This document shows, one piece after another, positions 33,555-44,458 of a stretch of DNA of 44,838 nucleotides (positions are counted from its first letter, which is position 1; every line of letters starts with the position of its first letter). Under the pieces are notes generated by a model. The model saw nothing but the letters and a program-made list of their open reading frames with translations. It searched no databases and had not been told where the DNA came from. A program made the position numbers and the translations under genes. Origin of the DNA: Thermoplasmata archaeon (GTDB lineage Archaea > Thermoplasmatota > Thermoplasmata > Lutacidiplasmatales > UBA184); NCBI GenBank assembly GCA_021816955.1, contig JAKAWP010000007.1:1-44838 (forward strand). The letters are read 5' to 3'.

Positions 33555-34829
33555 GTGTACCCCAGACGCCGCGGCGGCGGTCTTGCGACCGCAGCGAAGG
33601 GAGCTCGTCACCGAAAGAAATACTCGCCGCCTCGTCGGACCCGCTGGAAACCGCGAGTCCTCTCGGACCGACAGGTCCGCTCGGCCGCCCTCTTCTGGCT
33701 CCTCCCGCTCCTGAAGAGTGCCCTCTGTCGAACCTTCCGCCCACCCACGGTGCGCGACACGGCCGACCTACTGCTGAGGGCCGCCGTCCTCCGCGCCTCC
33801 GTCCATCGAGCCCGGGCCCAGAGTCGACGGGGACACTCCGACCGCACCGCCCGATGGCTCTTCGCTCACCTCAGTCTCGGGCGGACCCAACGGGCCCTGA
33901 CCTTCATGCTCCGCCGCCCGATCCGTGGCCGCGTCCCGAAGGACCCGGTCGATGTCGCCATCGACTTCCACGACCGACCGTACTACGGCCCGCCTCAGGA
34001 TGCGCGTCGGCGCCAAGTGGTGAAGACGAAGGAGGAGCGGGGCACCCACCGGGCCCACCGCTTCGCTTCCCTCTCGATCCTCCTGCCTCGCTTCCGTCTC
34101 ATCGCCTCGCTGCGGTTCCACCCGAGGAACGGCGGCACCCTCACCGCCGTTCGTGCCGCCCTCCACGACTTCCAGATGGCAGGCGGGAAGCTCCGCGCCG
34201 TCTTCCTCGACCGGGGGTTCTACAACTATGTCGTCCTCTCGTGGTTGAAGGCTCCGGGGATCACCGCGGTCGTCCCCCTCCGCCTCGGCTCCCGCCAGCG
34301 CAAGAAGTGGGAGCGCGGGAAGCGCTCCTACTCGACCACCCACACGCTGAAGGGCCCCCGCCGAGGAGATCCTCCTCTGGAAGTGACGATCCATGTTGTC
34401 GTCCGCTACCAGATGGGTCGGAAGTGGGACCGCCACGGCAGTCAGTACCTGATCTACGCCGTGCTCGGCGACAGGTCGCTGAAGGAGGTGGCCGACCGCT
34501 ATCGGGGGCGCTTCGGCATCGAGTCTAGCTACAGAATTCTCGGCCAGGCAATGGCCCGCACGTCAAGCCGCTCCCCGGCGCTGCGCCTCCTCCAGGTCGG
34601 GGTGGGAATGCTCCTCCAGAACGAATGGGTCATCCTCAAGCTGCTCTACGCGAGCGAAGGTCGGCAGGGTCCGGTCGGGTTCCGCATCCGCGAGGAACTC
34701 CTCCGCTTCGAGGATCTCCTCCAGATGCTGCTGCGGGCCGTCGGGTATCGCCTCGGGAACGTCTGCGCGGTGGAGAATCGACGGAGACTACCGACTCGCC
34801 TTCGTCGGCAGGGACTTACGTTGCTCTGA
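33555..34829 (+). CDS. ISH3/IS4-like DDE transposase
   Basis: A 424-residue transposase resembling archaeal ISH3-type DDE enzymes. The first catalytic Asp is in 'VDVAIDFHDRPYYG', the second in 'KLRAVFLDRGFYNYVVLSWL', and the Glu lies in 'YRGRFGIESSYRILGQA', the Y-R-x-R-F/W-x-I-E signature of IS4-like enzymes. The three acidic residues seem intact. The GTG start at 33555 is preceded by an Arg-rich stretch, so the true start may be somewhat later. Terminal inverted repeats were not found. The stop (34827-34829) is only 12 bases before the next gene, which leaves little room for a right terminal repeat outside coding sequence. It may be active or a recently fixed single gene. Confidence 0.8.
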   Translation: MYPRRRGGGLATAAKGARHRKKYSPPRRTRWKPRVLSDRQVRSAALFWLLPLLKSALCRTFRPPTVRDTADLLLRAAVLRASVHRARAQSRRGHSDRTARWLFAHLSLGRTQRALTFMLRRPIRGRVPKDPVDVAIDFHDRPYYGPPQDARRRQVVKTKEERGTHRAHRFASLSILLPRFRLIASLRFHPRNGGTLTAVRAALHDFQMAGGKLRAVFLDRGFYNYVVLSWLKAPGITAVVPLRLGSRQRKKWERGKRSYSTTHTLKGPRRGDPPLEVTIHVVVRYQMGRKWDRHGSQYLIYAVLGDRSLKEVADRYRGRFGIESSYRILGQAMARTSSRSPALRLLQVGVGMLLQNEWVILKLLYASEGRQGPVGFRIREELLRFEDLLQMLLRAVGYRLGNVCAVENRRRLPTRLRRQGLTLL

Positions 34830-34841: not shown

Positions 34842-35360
34842 TTGCCAAGTACTGGAATCGCTCTCGCGCATCCGCATGGACTTCCGCAAGTCCGGCTTCT
34901 CAAGCTGCTTTGGCTCGCCGAACTCAAGTACTACGAGCGGACCGGAAGGAGGCTGACGCGGGCAAAGTGGTGGCGGTGGAACTACGGCCCTTACAGCAAG
35001 GACGCGATCAATACCGTGAAGCGGGACACGAAGACCTTCCGGGTCGAGCGGCAGCAGGATGAGAGCTGGCAAACTGGCCGTGTCATTCATGCGAATCCCC
35101 GGGCGGTGAAGGGGCCCTCCGACCGCGAGGGGCTTCGGGCCATCGACGACGTCCTGGCGACGTACGGAGAGTACACGAACGAGGAGCTGGTTCAGGAAGT
35201 CTACGCCGACCCGTTCTTCGAGGCGACGCCGTTCAGCGCCGACTTCGACTTTGCGAAGCTGACCGACTACCGTCGAACTCTGCCGGAGTCCGAAGAACGA
35301 CGGCTGCTCGAACTCCCGACCAAACCCGTAGCCACCCTCGCCGAGCTGTTCGCTCCCTAG
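34842..35360 (+). CDS. Panacea-domain (SocA/DUF4065) antitoxin
   Basis: A 172-residue protein with the Panacea fold used by many antitoxins to neutralise unrelated toxins. The signature part is near the start: 'LLKLLWLAELKYYERTGRRL' followed by 'AKWWRWNYGPYSKDAINTV', matching the helix and W-x-Y-G-P-x-S motif of the SocA/DUF4065 family. A second helical part 'IDDVLATYGEYTNEELVQEV' lies near residues 100-120. The start is TTG with a strong Shine-Dalgarno site. The stop is nine bases before the ATG of a RelE/ParE-like toxin gene, the usual operon order. The antitoxin role is inferred from family and partner. Confidence 0.75.
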   Translation: MPSTGIALAHPHGLPQVRLLKLLWLAELKYYERTGRRLTRAKWWRWNYGPYSKDAINTVKRDTKTFRVERQQDESWQTGRVIHANPRAVKGPSDREGLRAIDDVLATYGEYTNEELVQEVYADPFFEATPFSADFDFAKLTDYRRTLPESEERRLLELPTKPVATLAELFAP

Positions 35361-35369
35361 CGGATCCGG

Positions 35370-35680
35370 ATGGCCGACCGGACTCCCGCCGCGGCGTGGC
35401 GCCTGGAGAGGACCGATGAGTTCGAGGAGGAACTCAAGCGGGCCTGCGGAAAGGACGGCGCCCTACGATCGCGAGTCGCGAAGAAGATACGGAAAATCCT
35501 CGAGGACCCTGAACATATTGGCGAGTGGAGGAGAGGAGCGTTGAAGGGATTGAAGTCGGAGTACGTGAACCCGTTCGTCATCCCTTTCAGCTACGAGCTG
35601 ACAATAGACAACCCCCCGGGGTCGTCTACCTGCGAGGGTTCTGGCACCACAACGACCGCCGTTACGATCCGAGCCGATGA
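35370..35680 (+). pseudogene. RelE/ParE-like toxin with a single-base frameshift
   Basis: The first 77 residues match the RelE/ParE/YafQ fold: 'WRLERTDEFEEELKRACGK', 'SRVAKKIRKILEDPEHIGEW', 'ALKGLKSEYVNPFVIPFSYEL'. The frame is lost at a run of six C (35612-35617). Adding one C would restore 'PPGVVYLRGFWHHNDRRYD', ending at TGA 35678-35680, exactly the beta-strand end of such toxins (total about 103 residues). As sequenced, the frame instead runs to 35711 with an unrelated tail. This is either a real inactivating deletion or a homopolymer error. The gene follows the Panacea antitoxin by nine bases. Members of this fold cleave ribosome-bound mRNA or inhibit gyrase; which applies is unknown. 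Confidence 0.65.
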
Positions 35681-36258
35681 GGCGGGGACTATTCGGGCCC
35701 CGCGGATGTAGAACCATAAGCGTTCGACTCCCTTCCGACCCGTTCTGATACCGGCCGTGCTTGGCCCGTCCGTCCTAAACCTTCGTAGGGGGGGACGGGT
35801 GGGGCGATCCCAGGGTTACCGTCCGCCCACGGGCGAGAGGCGGGCAGAGACCGAGTCGAAGGAAGGGCCGCCGTCACCGTTGCTAGTCCGGAGCTGGGGA
35901 ACGACCGGCGCGACGTTCCCCCAAGGGCTCGACCCGTCGTCAATGGGCTCGCGACCGTTGGCCGATCCTCGCGCCAGGAACTCCGGATGCGATTCGAAGG
36001 GCCACCAACGGCGTCCCTTCGGTCCCTCACGCGCTTTGGTCAAATCGAGTAACTGTCAGCGTGCTTCGCACGCGAGAGGGGAACCGCCGAGTGGGGCGAC
36101 GGAACCGTCGTGACGAAGGAGAGGGACGGTCGATGACGTCGGTCGGAAGACCCCGCCGAACAACCCGCTCGCGGGAGTGTGTATTTTAAGGGCCCAACCC
36201 CATGTCGACCGCGAAGGTCACCCTCTCGAGGCGAAGGGTCCGAGAGAAGGAACGATCG
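35681..36258. other. Intergenic region with two hairpins and a promoter
   Basis: No gene is recognised here. There are two short perfect inverted repeats: GCGTGC-TTC-GCACGC at 36059-36073 and CGACGG-AA-CCGTCG at 36097-36110. A TATA box at 36182-36189 belongs to the MoaD-like gene. The first hairpin lies far from any stop codon, so a terminator role is doubtful. Confidence 0.45.
36182..36189 (+). promoter_or_regulatory. TATA box of the MoaD-like/propeller operon
   Basis: TATTTTAA is centred at about 36185, predicting transcription start near 36211. That is after the first in-frame ATG (36202), so translation should start at ATG 36259, which has AGAAGGA as a Shine-Dalgarno site a few bases upstream. 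Confidence 0.55.
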
Positions 36259-36528
36259 ATGCTGAAGGTCCGCCTCGACAGCTGGCTGAGCGAGTTTGGT
36301 CCCCGAGGCCAAGAACGGGTGGAGGCTCGTAGCATCGAGCAACTGATCGAAGCGCTCGAGCGGAAGTACCCCCGCCTCCGTTTCAAGCTCCGCGACGAGA
36401 CGGGCAACCTCCGACGTTTCGTCCGCGTTTTCGTCGACGGAGAGGACGTAAGCGGAAGGGCCGGGGTAGCGACCCCTTTGACGGGCTCCGAGACCATCGA
36501 TATCCTCCATTCGATCGCGGGCGGCTAG
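36259..36528 (+). CDS. MoaD/ThiS-like ubiquitin-fold protein ending in Gly-Gly
   Basis: An 89-residue beta-grasp protein of the MoaD/ThiS family. It has 'ARSIEQLIEALERKYPRL', then 'RRFVRVFVDGEDV', 'TPLTGSETIDILHSIAGG', ending in the diagnostic Gly-Gly that is adenylated and thiocarboxylated or conjugated. ATG 36259 is preferred over 36202 because of the position of the TATA box. It is followed 33 bases later by a beta-propeller protein in the same direction, not by moaE, moeB or thiG, so a role in molybdopterin or thiazole synthesis is not supported by context. A sulfur-carrier or small-protein-modifier role is possible. Confidence 0.82.
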   Translation: MLKVRLDSWLSEFGPRGQERVEARSIEQLIEALERKYPRLRFKLRDETGNLRRFVRVFVDGEDVSGRAGVATPLTGSETIDILHSIAGG

Positions 36529-36561
36529 TCCCGGCCGGTGGGGAAGGGGAGCAGGGGGAAC

Positions 36562-37692
36562 ATGACGAAGAAGGGAGTGGTCCGGGTGCTGCTCGGGACG
36601 AGAAAAGGAACGTACGTCGTCACCGGCGACCTGGCCCGACGTCGCTGGAAGGTCGGTCCGCCGGCTCACGTGGGAAGCGACGTCTACCACGTCGTCGCGG
36701 ATCCGCGACGGCCGGGAGACCTCTATGCGGCCGTGAACGACAACTTTTGGGGCCCGATGGTACAGCGCTCGGACGACTGGGGCCGGACCTGGCGGGAAGT
36801 GGCGACCCCCCTTACCCCGCTCAAGAAGCAGCGGAACCCGACCTTCGATGCCGATCATCCGACCGCGTCGGTCCCTCGTCCGCTCAACAACCTCTGGCAC
36901 ATCGAACCGGGACGAGCCGAAGAATCGGAGACGCTCTATCTCGGGGCCGATCCGCACTATCTGTTCCGCACGCCGGACCGAGGGGCGACCTGGGAGCCGG
37001 TGGAGGCGATCAACCACCACCCGGACCGAAAGAACTGGGCGCCCGGTGCCGGAGGTCACTGCCTCCACACGATCCTGCTGGACCCGCGGGACGCCAACCG
37101 CCTCTACGTCGGCCTGTCGGCCGTGGGCACGTTCCGCTCGGACGACGGAGGCCGATCATGGACCCCCAAGAACCGAGGGGTCCGGACACCGTTCCTCCCG
37201 GAGAAGTACCCGGAAACCGGCCAGTGCGTGCACCACGTCGCGATGGACTCGGCCGATCCCGACACATTCTACCGCCAGGACCACGGCGGGATGTACGTCT
37301 CCCACGACCGCATGGATCATTGGACCCGGATCGGAAGGCCGCTCGGCGACGACTTCGGCTTCGGGGTCGCCTCCCCTACCTCCGCCCCGGGGCTCGCCTA
37401 CTTCGTTCGGCTGGACGGACGGGCGCGGGTGACGGGCGAAGGGTACCTTCAAGTCTGGGAGTGGAACGGCCGTCGGCGGCGGTGGCGAGGGCTCCTCAGG
37501 CCGAACGATTTCCCGGGCCACTTCGGGGTACAGCGAGAAGGGATCGCGACCGACACCTTGACCCCGCACGGGGTGTACGTCGGTACGACGACGGGCCAGT
37601 TATTCGTGAGCGCGAACGGCGGCACGACGTGGAGCCAGGTCCCGTTCCAATTCCCGGGGATCCACTCCGTGAGCGTCGCAGCTCCGACGTAA
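36562..37692 (+). CDS. Asp-box (BNR/sortilin-like) beta-propeller protein
   Basis: A 376-residue cytoplasmic protein (no signal peptide) predicted to form a beta-propeller. Five Asp-box motifs (S-x-D-x-G-x-T-W type) are visible: 'RSDDWGRTW', 'RTPDRGATW', 'RSDDGGRSW', a degenerate 'VSHDRMDHW', and 'VSANGGTTW'. Each is preceded by strands such as 'LYLGADPHYLF' and 'LYVGLSAVGTF'. It resembles exo-sialidase/sortilin-like proteins, but catalytic sialidase residues are not evident. I choose ATG 36562 because a purine-rich GGGGGA precedes it; the GTG at 36538 adds eight Gly/Lys-rich residues. It is co-transcribed with the MoaD-like gene, an arrangement I recall from other genomes but cannot verify here. 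Function unknown; a binding scaffold is likely. Confidence 0.8.
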   Translation: MTKKGVVRVLLGTRKGTYVVTGDLARRRWKVGPPAHVGSDVYHVVADPRRPGDLYAAVNDNFWGPMVQRSDDWGRTWREVATPLTPLKKQRNPTFDADHPTASVPRPLNNLWHIEPGRAEESETLYLGADPHYLFRTPDRGATWEPVEAINHHPDRKNWAPGAGGHCLHTILLDPRDANRLYVGLSAVGTFRSDDGGRSWTPKNRGVRTPFLPEKYPETGQCVHHVAMDSADPDTFYRQDHGGMYVSHDRMDHWTRIGRPLGDDFGFGVASPTSAPGLAYFVRLDGRARVTGEGYLQVWEWNGRRRRWRGLLRPNDFPGHFGVQREGIATDTLTPHGVYVGTTTGQLFVSANGGTTWSQVPFQFPGIHSVSVAAPT

Positions 37693-39091: not shown

Positions 39092-40276
39092 CTACCGCGC
39101 TCGGTCTCCGCCAATCTCCGCCGTTGGGCGGGGCAACGGTTCTTCGGGAGAGACGCGGGATGCCCGAAGGCGATCCGGCTCTTCCCCGGGCGCCCGGGGG
39201 GCCGAATGCGATCCCAGGTAACGGGCAATGGTCACCAATCCGAGAAGGACCGGGACCTCCACGAGCGGTCCGACCGTCGCGGCGAGGGCGACGGTCGAGG
39301 TGATGCCGAACACCGCGACCGCGACGGTGATCGCGAGTTCGAAGTTGTTGCTGGCCGCGGTGAGCGACAGCGCAGCGTTTTCTGGGTACTCCGCCCGAGC
39401 CCAGCGGCCGAGGCCGAAGCTCAGGAAGAACATCACGACGAAGTACGCGACCAGCGGAACAGCGACCAGCACGACCTCCACGGGCGACGCGAGGATCGCG
39501 GAACTCTGGAACGCAAACAGCAGGACGATCGTGTAGAGGAGGGCGCCGAGCGACACGGGCGCGAGCGCCGGTCCGATCCGCCCATCGAGGTCGGCGAGCC
39601 GTCCGGCCGTTCGATGCGCCCACCGGGTCAAAACCCCGGCGGCGAACGGCAGCCCGAGGAATACCACTACGCTGTACGCGACGAGCGCCGGTGACACCGG
39701 GACCGGGAGGGCGGGCGCGCCGGCCGCCGGCAGAAATATCGTCACGAACGTGTAGACGTAGATCCCGTAGAACGCGACCTGGAAGAGGCTGTTGAACGCC
39801 ACCAATCCGGCCGCGTACTCTCGGCTGCCGCCCGCGAGTTCGTTCCAGACGAGGACCATCGCAATGCATCGGGCGCTTCCGATGAGCACGAGGCCGACGA
39901 GGAGCTCGGGATACCCGCGGAGCAGCAGGAGCCCGAGTCCGAGCATGACGAACGGGCCGACCCCCCAGTTGAGGAGGAGGGAGAGGGCGAGGAGCCGGGT
40001 GTTCCGGAAGACCCGCGGAAGCTCATCGTAACGAACCCGTACCAGCGGAGGGTACATCATCAACACCAAGCCCGCTCCGATCGCGGCGGGGACGGGAGTG
40101 CCCGGCAGATCCCAACCTCCGATGGCTCCGACAATCGAGGCGGGTGCCAGACGCCCGAACGCCAGTCCGCCGACCATCGCCGCGGCGATCCAGAGGGGGA
40201 GGAATCGGTCCCCGGCGGCGAGGGTTCTTCGGGTCGGGCACGGATCGTTCTCCGAGCCTTCGGGACCGTCCGTCAC
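39092..40276 (-). CDS. acr3: Arsenite efflux permease, ACR3 family
   Basis: A 394-residue membrane protein with about ten helices that exports arsenite. The family signature 'GSARCIAMVLVWNELAGG' contains the conserved Cys of the transport path. 'YPPLVRVRYDELP' and 'LTAASNNFELAITVAVA' are also typical. The last 35 residues are hydrophilic. The start is GTG 40276, overlapping the arsC stop by four bases, so the pump and the reductase are translated together. It exports the arsenite made by ArsC. No arsA ATPase or arsM is in the window. Confidence 0.92.
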   Translation of the reverse strand: MTDGPEGSENDPCPTRRTLAAGDRFLPLWIAAAMVGGLAFGRLAPASIVGAIGGWDLPGTPVPAAIGAGLVLMMYPPLVRVRYDELPRVFRNTRLLALSLLLNWGVGPFVMLGLGLLLLRGYPELLVGLVLIGSARCIAMVLVWNELAGGSREYAAGLVAFNSLFQVAFYGIYVYTFVTIFLPAAGAPALPVPVSPALVAYSVVVFLGLPFAAGVLTRWAHRTAGRLADLDGRIGPALAPVSLGALLYTIVLLFAFQSSAILASPVEVVLVAVPLVAYFVVMFFLSFGLGRWARAEYPENAALSLTAASNNFELAITVAVAVFGITSTVALAATVGPLVEVPVLLGLVTIARYLGSHSAPRAPGEEPDRLRASRVSPEEPLPRPTAEIGGDRAR

Positions 40277-40749
40277 CTTCGTGGTCCGTCGTCCGTTCCC
40301 GGCCGTTCGCCGGAGAGCTCGCCGACGAGGCGGACGACCCGCCGACGGATCTCGTCACGAACTTCGCGGAATCCGGCGTCCGTCAATGGCGCCGGATCCG
40401 GCAATCCCCAATCGATCGTCTTCTCCCGGCGAAGGAAGCGCGGACAGCTCGCGTCGTCCAAGCAGCCCATGGTGATGATCAGGTCGGCCCGCTCGACGAG
40501 CGACGGCGTGAGAAGCTGCGGAGGATGGGGTGGGAGGCGGTAGCCGATCTCCTCGAGAACCGGTCCGGTGCGCGGATTCGGCTGGGCCGCGGGCTGGGTG
40601 CCAGCGCTCTCCGCCCTCCAGCCGGGGGGCGCCTCATGATTGAAGATCGCCTCGGCGATGAGGGAGCGGGCCGAGTTCTGGACACAAACGAACAGGACGA
40701 CTCCGGAAGCCCCGACCTTCTTTGCCGGGCGGAGGGAAGCCGACGTCAT
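40273..40749 (-). CDS. arsC: Arsenate reductase, low-molecular-weight phosphatase type
   Basis: A 158-residue ArsC of the thioredoxin-coupled type that reduces arsenate to arsenite. The P-loop 'VCVQNSARSLIAEA' gives nucleophile Cys22 and Arg28. The redox pair is Cys96 and Cys102 in 'TMGCLDDASCP', and the general acid is Asp118 in 'DWGLPDP'. With both extra cysteines present it is a reductase, not a plain tyrosine phosphatase. Start ATG 40749 gives a short 15-residue extension before the first strand. It is the first gene of the arsC-acr3 operon and divergent from an HxlR-type regulator. Confidence 0.92.
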   Translation of the reverse strand: MTSASLRPAKKVGASGVVLFVCVQNSARSLIAEAIFNHEAPPGWRAESAGTQPAAQPNPRTGPVLEEIGYRLPPHPPQLLTPSLVERADLIITMGCLDDASCPRFLRREKTIDWGLPDPAPLTDAGFREVRDEIRRRVVRLVGELSGERPGTDDGPRR

Positions 40750-42176: not shown

Positions 42177-42323
42177 ATGACGAAGGAGCGAGACCCGATC
42201 TGCGGGATGTCGGTGGAATCGACGACGGCGAAGTGGCACGTGCGCGAGGCCGACCGGACGGTCTACTTCTGTTCGGAAGGGTGCCTCCGCGCGTACTCCC
42301 AGCGGGCGGCTCCCTCCCGGTAG
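42177..42323 (+). CDS. 48-residue YHS-domain metal-binding protein
   Basis: A short gene beginning with a leaderless ATG. It has 'DPICGMSV' and 'VYFCSEGCLRAY', the Cys pattern of YHS/TRASH domains, which bind Cu or other soft metals through three cysteines. The same motif is repeated at the start of the copper ATPase downstream ('DPVCGMYV', 'YLFCSTACRRTF'), 29 bases away. It is likely a stand-alone metal carrier or sensor for the pump, arisen by duplication of the ATPase N-terminus or its source. It would be missed by annotators with a length cut-off. Confidence 0.72.
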   Translation: MTKERDPICGMSVESTTAKWHVREADRTVYFCSEGCLRAYSQRAAPSR

Positions 42324-42352
42324 GCGGCGGTCCGCCGGCCCCGCCCCGTGCC

Positions 42353-44458
42353 ATGGCGACCGATCCCGTGTGCGGCATGTACGTGGCGGAAGGCCCAGAG
42401 GCGCTTCGCCTCGTCCGGGGCACCCGTACGTATCTGTTCTGCTCGACGGCCTGCCGACGAACGTTCGACAACCCGGAACAGGAACGCCGGTCGCTCGGCC
42501 GTCGGCTCGCCTTCGGCCTTCCTGCGACCGCGATAGTCGCCGGCCTCACTTACGGCGTATCCGCTGTCTGGGCGACGGGGATCGTGGCGCTCCTCGCGAC
42601 CGTCGCCCAAGTGTACTTGGGAGCGCCGTTTTACCGCGGGCTCGTCGACGCGCTACGGCACCGAAGAGCCAACATGGACGTCTTGATCGCGGTCGGCACC
42701 ACGGCCGCGTACGCCTACAGCGTGAGCGTCCTCGCGCTGCCGGGCCGCCTACCGCCGGCTTTGTACTTTGACGCATCGACGGCGATCCTCACGTTGATCT
42801 TGGTTGGCAACTACTTGGAGCAGCTCACGCGGACGCACGCCACGGACGCCCTCCGCGCACTGCGAGAGTGGGCCCCGCCGACCGCGCACCGGATCGACGG
42901 CGATCGCACATCGGAGGTGCCGCTCGCCGAGGTGCGGCCGGGGGATCGACTTCTCGTCCCGCCCGGGGAGCGGATACCGGCGGACGGGATCGTCCGCCAG
43001 GGCCGCTCGACCGCCGAAGAGGCGCTCGTGACCGGGGAGAGCCGACCGATCCCGAAAGGCCCGGGAGACCGAGTGCTCGCCGGCAGCGTGAACGGGGAAG
43101 GCGCGCTCGAGATCGAGGCGACCGCGGTCGGGGAAGCGACGTTCCTCGCGCACATCGGCGAGCTCGTCAGCGAGAGCGAACTCAGCCGGATCCCCCTGCA
43201 GGATCGGGCCGACCGGATCGCGGCCGGCTTCGTTCCGTTTGTCCTCACGTTGGCGGTCGTCGCGAGCCTCGGCTGGCTCGCCTTCGGCCGCGCGGCGTTC
43301 CCGATCGCCGTTCTGGTCTTCGTCAGCGTGACGATCATCGCATGTCCGTGCGCCTTCGGCATGGCGACGCCGGCCGCGCTCGTGACCGGCGTCGGACGAG
43401 CCGCGCGGCAAGGGATCCTCTTCCGGGGTCGGGATGCGATCGAACGCGCCGCTCGGGTCGATACCGTGCTGCTCGACAAGACGGGCACGCTTACCGCGGG
43501 CCATGCCCGCCTCGCCGACGTCCTCGTCGAACCCGGACACACCCGGGCCGAAGTGCTCGGGCTCGCGGCCGGTCTCGAGCGGACGTCGACGCATCCGCTC
43601 GCCGACGCGGTCGTGTCGGCCGCCCGGGCCGAATCGATCGCCCCGGTCGAGCTCGCCGAGGTCACCGCGCGACCGGGACTGGGCCTCGAAGGGCGCCTCG
43701 GCTCCGAGATCGTCCGGCTCGTCCGCACCTCCTCCGGCCGAGCCGCGAGCACTCCCGGGGGGTCGATGTCGGCTCGGATCGACCGATGGCTTGCCGAGGG
43801 GGCGACCGTGAGCGTGCTTGAGCGCGGCGACGCGAGAATCGGCGTCCTGGTCTTCCTCGACCCGGTGGCACCCACGGCCCGCGCCGCAGTGGCCGCCTTC
43901 GCCGCGGACGGGCTCGAAGTGACGATGGTGACCGGCGATACGAAGGGCGCGGCGCTCCGGGTCGCCCGGGAGGTCGGCATCGCCTCGGTTCGCTCCGACG
44001 CGACGCCCGACGAGAAGCTCGCCGCGATCCGGGAGCTCCAAGGGAGAGGGCGGACGGTAGCGTTCGTCGGCGACGGCCTCAACGACGCCCCGGCGCTCGC
44101 CGCCGCCGACGTCGGGATCGCGATCGGCACGGGGACGGACGTCGCGAAAGAGGCGGGCCACATCGTGCTCCTCTCTTCGAACCTCGTCGATGCGGCGCTC
44201 GCCCTGCGCATCGCTCGGCGGACGGTCGCCAAAGTTCGGCAGAACCTCCTCTGGGCGCTCGGTTACAACGCGGTCCTCCTCCCGATCGCGGCCGGCCTGC
44301 TCGTCCCGCTCTGGGGGTTCTCGGTCTACGCGGTGCTTCCGATCCTGGGGGCGTTCGCGATGGCGATCAGCTCGACGCTCGTTCTCGTGAACTCGCTTTC
44401 CCTCCGCTGGATCCGCGTGGAGCACCGGAGCCGCTCGAGCGTCCCGTCGGTCGGCTGA
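42353..44458 (+). CDS. copA: Cu+-exporting P1B-type ATPase with N-terminal YHS domain
   Basis: A 701-residue heavy-metal P-type ATPase that pumps Cu+ out of the cell. It starts with a YHS domain (residues 1-40, 'DPVCGMYV') in place of the usual CxxC domain. Transport site 'CPC' is at 331-333 in 'IIACPCAFGMATPAAL'. Phosphorylation Asp375 lies in 'DKTGTLTAG'. The phosphatase motif is 'TGES', the nucleotide site 'THPLAD', and the hinge is 'GDGLNDAPAL'. The last helices have 'YNAVLLPIAAG' and 'AMAISSTLVLVNS', the Y-N and M-x-x-S-S residues of Cu+ pumps. ATG 42353 is preferred since upstream residues are a shadow of the YHS gene. Its end overlaps the convergent mobA-like gene by about 90 bases. 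Confidence 0.93.
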   Translation: MATDPVCGMYVAEGPEALRLVRGTRTYLFCSTACRRTFDNPEQERRSLGRRLAFGLPATAIVAGLTYGVSAVWATGIVALLATVAQVYLGAPFYRGLVDALRHRRANMDVLIAVGTTAAYAYSVSVLALPGRLPPALYFDASTAILTLILVGNYLEQLTRTHATDALRALREWAPPTAHRIDGDRTSEVPLAEVRPGDRLLVPPGERIPADGIVRQGRSTAEEALVTGESRPIPKGPGDRVLAGSVNGEGALEIEATAVGEATFLAHIGELVSESELSRIPLQDRADRIAAGFVPFVLTLAVVASLGWLAFGRAAFPIAVLVFVSVTIIACPCAFGMATPAALVTGVGRAARQGILFRGRDAIERAARVDTVLLDKTGTLTAGHARLADVLVEPGHTRAEVLGLAAGLERTSTHPLADAVVSAARAESIAPVELAEVTARPGLGLEGRLGSEIVRLVRTSSGRAASTPGGSMSARIDRWLAEGATVSVLERGDARIGVLVFLDPVAPTARAAVAAFAADGLEVTMVTGDTKGAALRVAREVGIASVRSDATPDEKLAAIRELQGRGRTVAFVGDGLNDAPALAAADVGIAIGTGTDVAKEAGHIVLLSSNLVDAALALRIARRTVAKVRQNLLWALGYNAVLLPIAAGLLVPLWGFSVYAVLPILGAFAMAISSTLVLVNSLSLRWIRVEHRSRSSVPSVG

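Follow-up and report, generated by a model that had tools for sequence, protein, structure and literature searches.

What does a MoaD-like protein with a diagnostic Gly-Gly end do when the gene beside its own encodes a beta-propeller? The question is raised by two genes in a 44,838-nucleotide stretch of DNA (the window) from a Thermoplasmata archaeon (GCA_021816955.1, contig JAKAWP010000007.1), one of many pairs masked in public annotation by the labels 'exo-alpha-sialidase' and, beside it, 'MoaD/ThiS family protein'. A first-pass annotation had suggested that the two proteins deliver sulfur, or else that one is a modifier and the other its scaffold or substrate; the evidence assembled here leans towards sulfur delivery as the predicted function.

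The two genes and their products

The first gene (reading frame 36259-36525, stop codon TAG 36526-36528) encodes a protein that scores 32.7 bits against Pfam ThiS, above the curated cut-off of 22.5, and matches PDB entries 1v8c, 3dwg and 4n6e by sequence. Its end, ...DILHSIAGG, bears out the Gly-Gly terminus on which the original identification was based. The second gene lies 33 bp past this stop, in the same frame, and its product matches PDB 3b7f over the whole length (phmmer, 9.9e-58); the structure predicted by AlphaFold2 (pLDDT 84, pTM 0.87) likewise retrieves 3b7f as its top Foldseek match (3.9e-34). This homologue, the BNR-repeat propeller Reut_B4987 of Cupriavidus necator JMP134, also has seven blades; it differs in being a bacterial protein, and its function is listed as 'Not known' (PMC2716378). 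Four canonical Asp-boxes (S70, T137, S193 and S350) and a degenerate one (S247) were recognised on reading the propeller sequence, making the five that had been claimed a fair count, and inspection by eye agreed with the earlier reading in that no signal peptide or other secretion signal was evident. Purifying selection acts on both genes, with dN/dS at about 0.12-0.31.

Table 1. Coordinates of the pair and of its putative expression signals within the window.
Feature	Position	Strand	Basis or remark
TATA-like element TATTTTAA	36182..36189	+	upstream of the MoaD/propeller pair; by sequence reading
SD-like AAGGA of the MoaD-like gene	36247..36251	+	7 nt before ATG 36259; by sequence reading
MoaD/ThiS-like ubiquitin-fold protein, 89 aa, C-terminal AGG	36259..36528	+	Pfam ThiS PF02597; PDB sequence matches
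SD-like AGGGGGA of the propeller gene	36553..36559	+	by sequence reading
7-bladed Asp-box beta-propeller, 376 aa	36562..37692	+	phmmer, AlphaFold2, Foldseek

The TATA-like element would place the transcription start near 36210, past an upstream ATG at 36202. Its position, the SD-like AAGGA and the beginning of homology at 36259 together indicate that this is the right start of the MoaD-like gene, so that the shift of the start proposed in the first-pass annotation is backed by homology as well as by the promoter-like element. A similar sequence, TATTTTA, also lies upstream of the MoaD-like gene in one relative (locus L024). For the propeller, ATG 36562 is backed by relatives beginning M(A/T)KKG and by its own SD-like sequence; relatives give no support for an alternative GTG start at 36538.

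Conservation of the pair

A propeller was counted as paired when a MoaD-like gene lay at most 300 bp away on the same strand. Among 141 distinct full-length propellers, a set that is not random because the strongest matches were inspected first, 117 (83%) have a directly adjacent MoaD-like gene, comprising 44/45 from Thermoplasmatota, 63/82 from Chloroflexota, 8/11 from Pseudomonadota and 2/3 from Actinomycetota. The proposal of a pair hung on adjacency being conserved across genomes, and it is. Genomes carry three to six ThiS-family genes, and by our own estimate the chance that one of these adjoins any given gene is far below 1%; chance adjacency is ruled out by the count above, and that the two genes are functionally linked is near certain. 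Three of the 24 unpaired propellers are tandem copies next to a paired copy; in these Chloroflexota loci (L153, L203 and L204) the tandem propellers share one MoaD-like gene.

Across the first 116 propellers the MoaD-like gene lies upstream in 52 and downstream in 43, with gaps from -27 (an overlap) to 146 bp. It precedes the propeller in Thermoplasmata's phylum, Thermoplasmatota, and in Pseudomonadota, and mostly follows it in Chloroflexota; the occurrence of both orders indicates that the link between the genes survived, or was rebuilt after, rearrangement. The propeller homologue of Cupriavidus metallidurans is paired. At a Paraburkholderia phymatum locus (L189) the two genes look to have decayed together, the propeller being spread over three frames and the MoaD-like gene truncated.

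Propeller matches occur in 38/295 Thermoplasmatota genomes and in 33/61 near relatives of the source genome, 31 of these 33 belonging to the same genus; a scan of genome contigs returned close relatives only, namely Thermoplasmata archaeon MAGs. In a sample of 301 Chloroflexota genomes, 243 gave some match to the propeller profile. Many of these hits are weak and belong to other propellers; strong full-length ones are listed for over 100 genomes. Haloarchaeal 'glycosyl hydrolases' were set aside as members of the pair, their matches being partial and with no adjacent MoaD annotated. A tree of the MoaD-like proteins, built on too few alignment columns, does not group the paired partners into one resolved clade, and the relatedness of the species confounds a mirror-tree correlation of r = 0.88.

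The Gly-Gly tail

The motif [ASTQ]GG is present in 116/117 partners: 102 end exactly in GG and 14 carry an extension beyond it. The exception, from Nonomuraea (L038:7069-7377, downstream of its propeller), ends in ...LPALA. The first 95 partners share a mean pairwise identity of 34%, and apart from the two glycines only P38 and R52 are fully conserved; retention of the tail against this divergence argues that it works. At one locus (L064:584-1453, minus strand) the propeller-adjacent MoaD-like domain continues in one frame into DUF1989 (Pfam, 172 bits), making its Gly-Gly internal.

This near-universal retention bears on the idea that the MoaD-like protein has a structural role, as a subunit whose glycines are an inherited relic. 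The Nonomuraea partner and the internal Gly-Gly of the DUF1989 fusion are what such a subunit might look like; nevertheless, keeping the motif at so low an identity makes this explanation improbable.

The conserved face of the propeller

Loops were assigned from the AlphaFold2 strands, with DA and BC loops forming the top face and AB and CD loops the bottom. Residues at least 95% conserved among 116 members include W112, W159, H169, S186, H224, H241, F267 and R325 on the top face, and on the bottom are mostly those of the Asp-boxes. From the topology, the top-face residues would cluster in space. H169, H224 and H241, invariant or nearly so, occupy equivalent top-face positions of neighbouring blades. 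Solo propellers, which have no adjacent MoaD-like gene, retain the same pocket residues; the pocket may therefore have another use, or the carrier may be encoded at an unlinked site.

No active site of the sialidase type is conserved among these residues. The propeller lacks the features expected of GH33 enzymes (arginine triad, catalytic Asp, Tyr/Glu): only R325 is invariant among the arginines, and no acid on the top face is invariant, conservation being confined to two Asp-box acids, D139 and D195, and to D331, which lies on the bottom. The sialidase annotation is accordingly not supported. That the propeller is nonetheless this or another glycosidase, and its pairing incidental, would accord with the exo-alpha-sialidase or sialidase label carried in P. 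aeruginosa, Mitsuaria and others, and with GH74 and GH33 folds being its structural neighbours, but with no evident secretion signal and an adjacency far above chance we consider it very improbable.

The three histidines could instead bind a metal, although this is a guess, and the propeller could act on the carrier C-terminus, trimming extensions or hydrolysing a thiocarboxylate or conjugates. Besides the histidines, the residues past Gly-Gly in a minority of partners and the DUF1989 fusion are consistent with processing of this kind. Most partners, however, have GG as their last two residues and leave nothing to trim, and JAMM proteases encoded elsewhere in the genome could do the job, so that we judge such a role unlikely.

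When both proteins were modelled as one chain, with the TAG codon read as Q purely as a modelling device, pTM was 0.72 vs 0.87 for the propeller alone; tail and linker were disordered, confidence in the tail was low, and no confident docking resulted.

Genome context

The source genome (82 contigs totalling 1.42 Mb; completeness 93.5%) contains three ThiS-family members: the window protein, a MoaD directly adjoining MoaE on contig C45, away from the window's contig, and part of a single-chain Ubl-E1-rhodanese fusion on contig C22, next to a JAMM protease gene. The fusion, with a ThiF match of 290.8 bits, is the only clear E1-like enzyme, the second ThiF match being a fragment of 35 positions below cut-off. 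An activating enzyme thus exists in trans, and it could act on the window MoaD-like protein.

Among the window genes tested, the pair has no molybdopterin (Moco) or thiamine gene as a neighbour, as the first-pass annotation had stated, and at no inspected locus does a moa gene adjoin it. When 54 loci, each 7 kb or longer, were clustered on gene calls that are rough in GC-rich DNA, no third conserved neighbour emerged, only the propeller and MoaD clusters being numerous. The pair is thus not explained by a moaE or E1-like partner in a larger syntenic block, both being on other contigs. Membership of the ThiS/MoaD family would allow the window protein to be a spare MoaD for molybdopterin synthase; unlike MoaD proper, the small subunit of that enzyme, it is not encoded near MoaE, and with another MoaD in that position and no moa neighbour at any inspected locus, this role is hardly credible.

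The remainder of the window holds, at 34842-35711, a gene resembling SocA/Panacea antitoxins and, after it, a weak ParE/YafQ-like gene, with a DDE transposase (33555-34829) adjacent; at 39092-40740 (minus strand) an ACR3 arsenite transporter adjoining a low-molecular-weight phosphatase/arsenate-reductase-like gene; and at 42233-44458 a P-type ATPase with a YHS domain. PADLOC gave no match, and a role in anti-phage defence was set aside.

Sulfur carrier or modifier

Conserved adjacency in two domains of life and in both gene orders, retention of Gly-Gly, the conserved surface predicted to form the top face and the E1-like enzyme encoded in trans together suggest, tentatively, that the MoaD-like protein is a ubiquitin-like sulfur carrier and the propeller its acceptor, the top pocket receiving the tail. 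The E1-like enzyme would adenylate the MoaD-like protein, and the rhodanese fused to that enzyme would supply the sulfur that turns its C-terminus into a thiocarboxylate; the flexible AGG tail would then enter the top-face pocket of the propeller (W112, W159, H169, H224, Q239, H241, F267, R325), which would bind a putative small acceptor and take up the sulfur, as happens between MoaE, ThiG or CysM and their carriers. The joint decay in P. phymatum and the peptide-tail binding of Asp-box propellers of the same fold were also counted in favour; counted against were the intact pocket of solo propellers, the ALA end in Nonomuraea, the extensions beyond Gly-Gly, the one-chain model, and the lack of any sulfur-metabolism gene conserved beside the pair in the 54-locus clustering.

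CysM is the acceptor for the CysO carrier. The CysO-CysM-Mec system of Mycobacterium offers a close parallel, since the solved structures nearest to the MoaD-like protein include CysO (3dwg) and a Gly-Gly carrier is likewise encoded next to its acceptor; here, however, the partner is a propeller rather than a PLP cysteine synthase, and the pair has no protease gene. MoaD-MoaE and ThiS-ThiG supply the proposed analogy of a carrier tail entering an acceptor enzyme, although neither MoaE nor ThiG is the partner here. Ycf48/HCF136, sortilin and DAIP, extracytoplasmic or thylakoid proteins with, to our knowledge, no Ubl partner, are propellers of the same Asp-box type with weak sequence similarity. 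Judging by the titles of structure entries, such propellers bind peptides or tails (Ycf48 with a D1 peptide, sortilin with neurotensin, DAIP with a thermolysin fragment).

Alternatively, the MoaD-like protein may be conjugated to lysines in the manner of SAMP or Urm1, with the propeller as substrate, adaptor or scaffold bringing targets to the E1. The top NCBIfam matches, SAMP1 and archaeal MoaD, point this way, as do the E1-like enzyme and JAMM proteases of the genome, the frequent role of propellers as interaction platforms and the presence of Lys at position 15 in 102/116. With the Haloferax system the MoaD-like protein shares the C-terminal GG and an E1-like enzyme in trans, and it differs in being considered throughout together with a propeller. 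The NCBIfam matches are below cut-off, however (41 bits where the SAMP1 equivalog NF041918 demands 60), no E2-, E3-like or JAMM gene is conserved beside the pair, and a propeller that served as an adaptor would have no need for a central top pocket with invariant His, Arg and Trp; we regard conjugation as a serious but rather unlikely alternative to sulfur delivery.

Neither a survey of Ubl neighbourhoods in prokaryotes from 2006 (PMC1779556) nor one of Ubl proteins in archaea from 2010 (PMC2948915) mentions propeller, BNR or glycosyl hydrolase partners in its main text, and among the open-access papers searched we found none linking MoaD with BNR proteins or reporting the pair. Occurring as it does in archaea and in no fewer than three phyla of bacteria, the pair points to a cell machine of two parts for which the literature so searched gave no description. 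Ubiquitin-fold sulfur carriers have a short list of known acceptors, to which a different conserved partner, spanning four phyla and two domains, is set alongside here. More speculatively, and with considerable doubt on our part, the pair may constitute a hitherto undescribed Ubl-dependent enzyme system of archaea and bacteria. In it the propeller, perhaps through a metal site of three His, would accept thiocarboxylates in a new way and make some sulfur compound.
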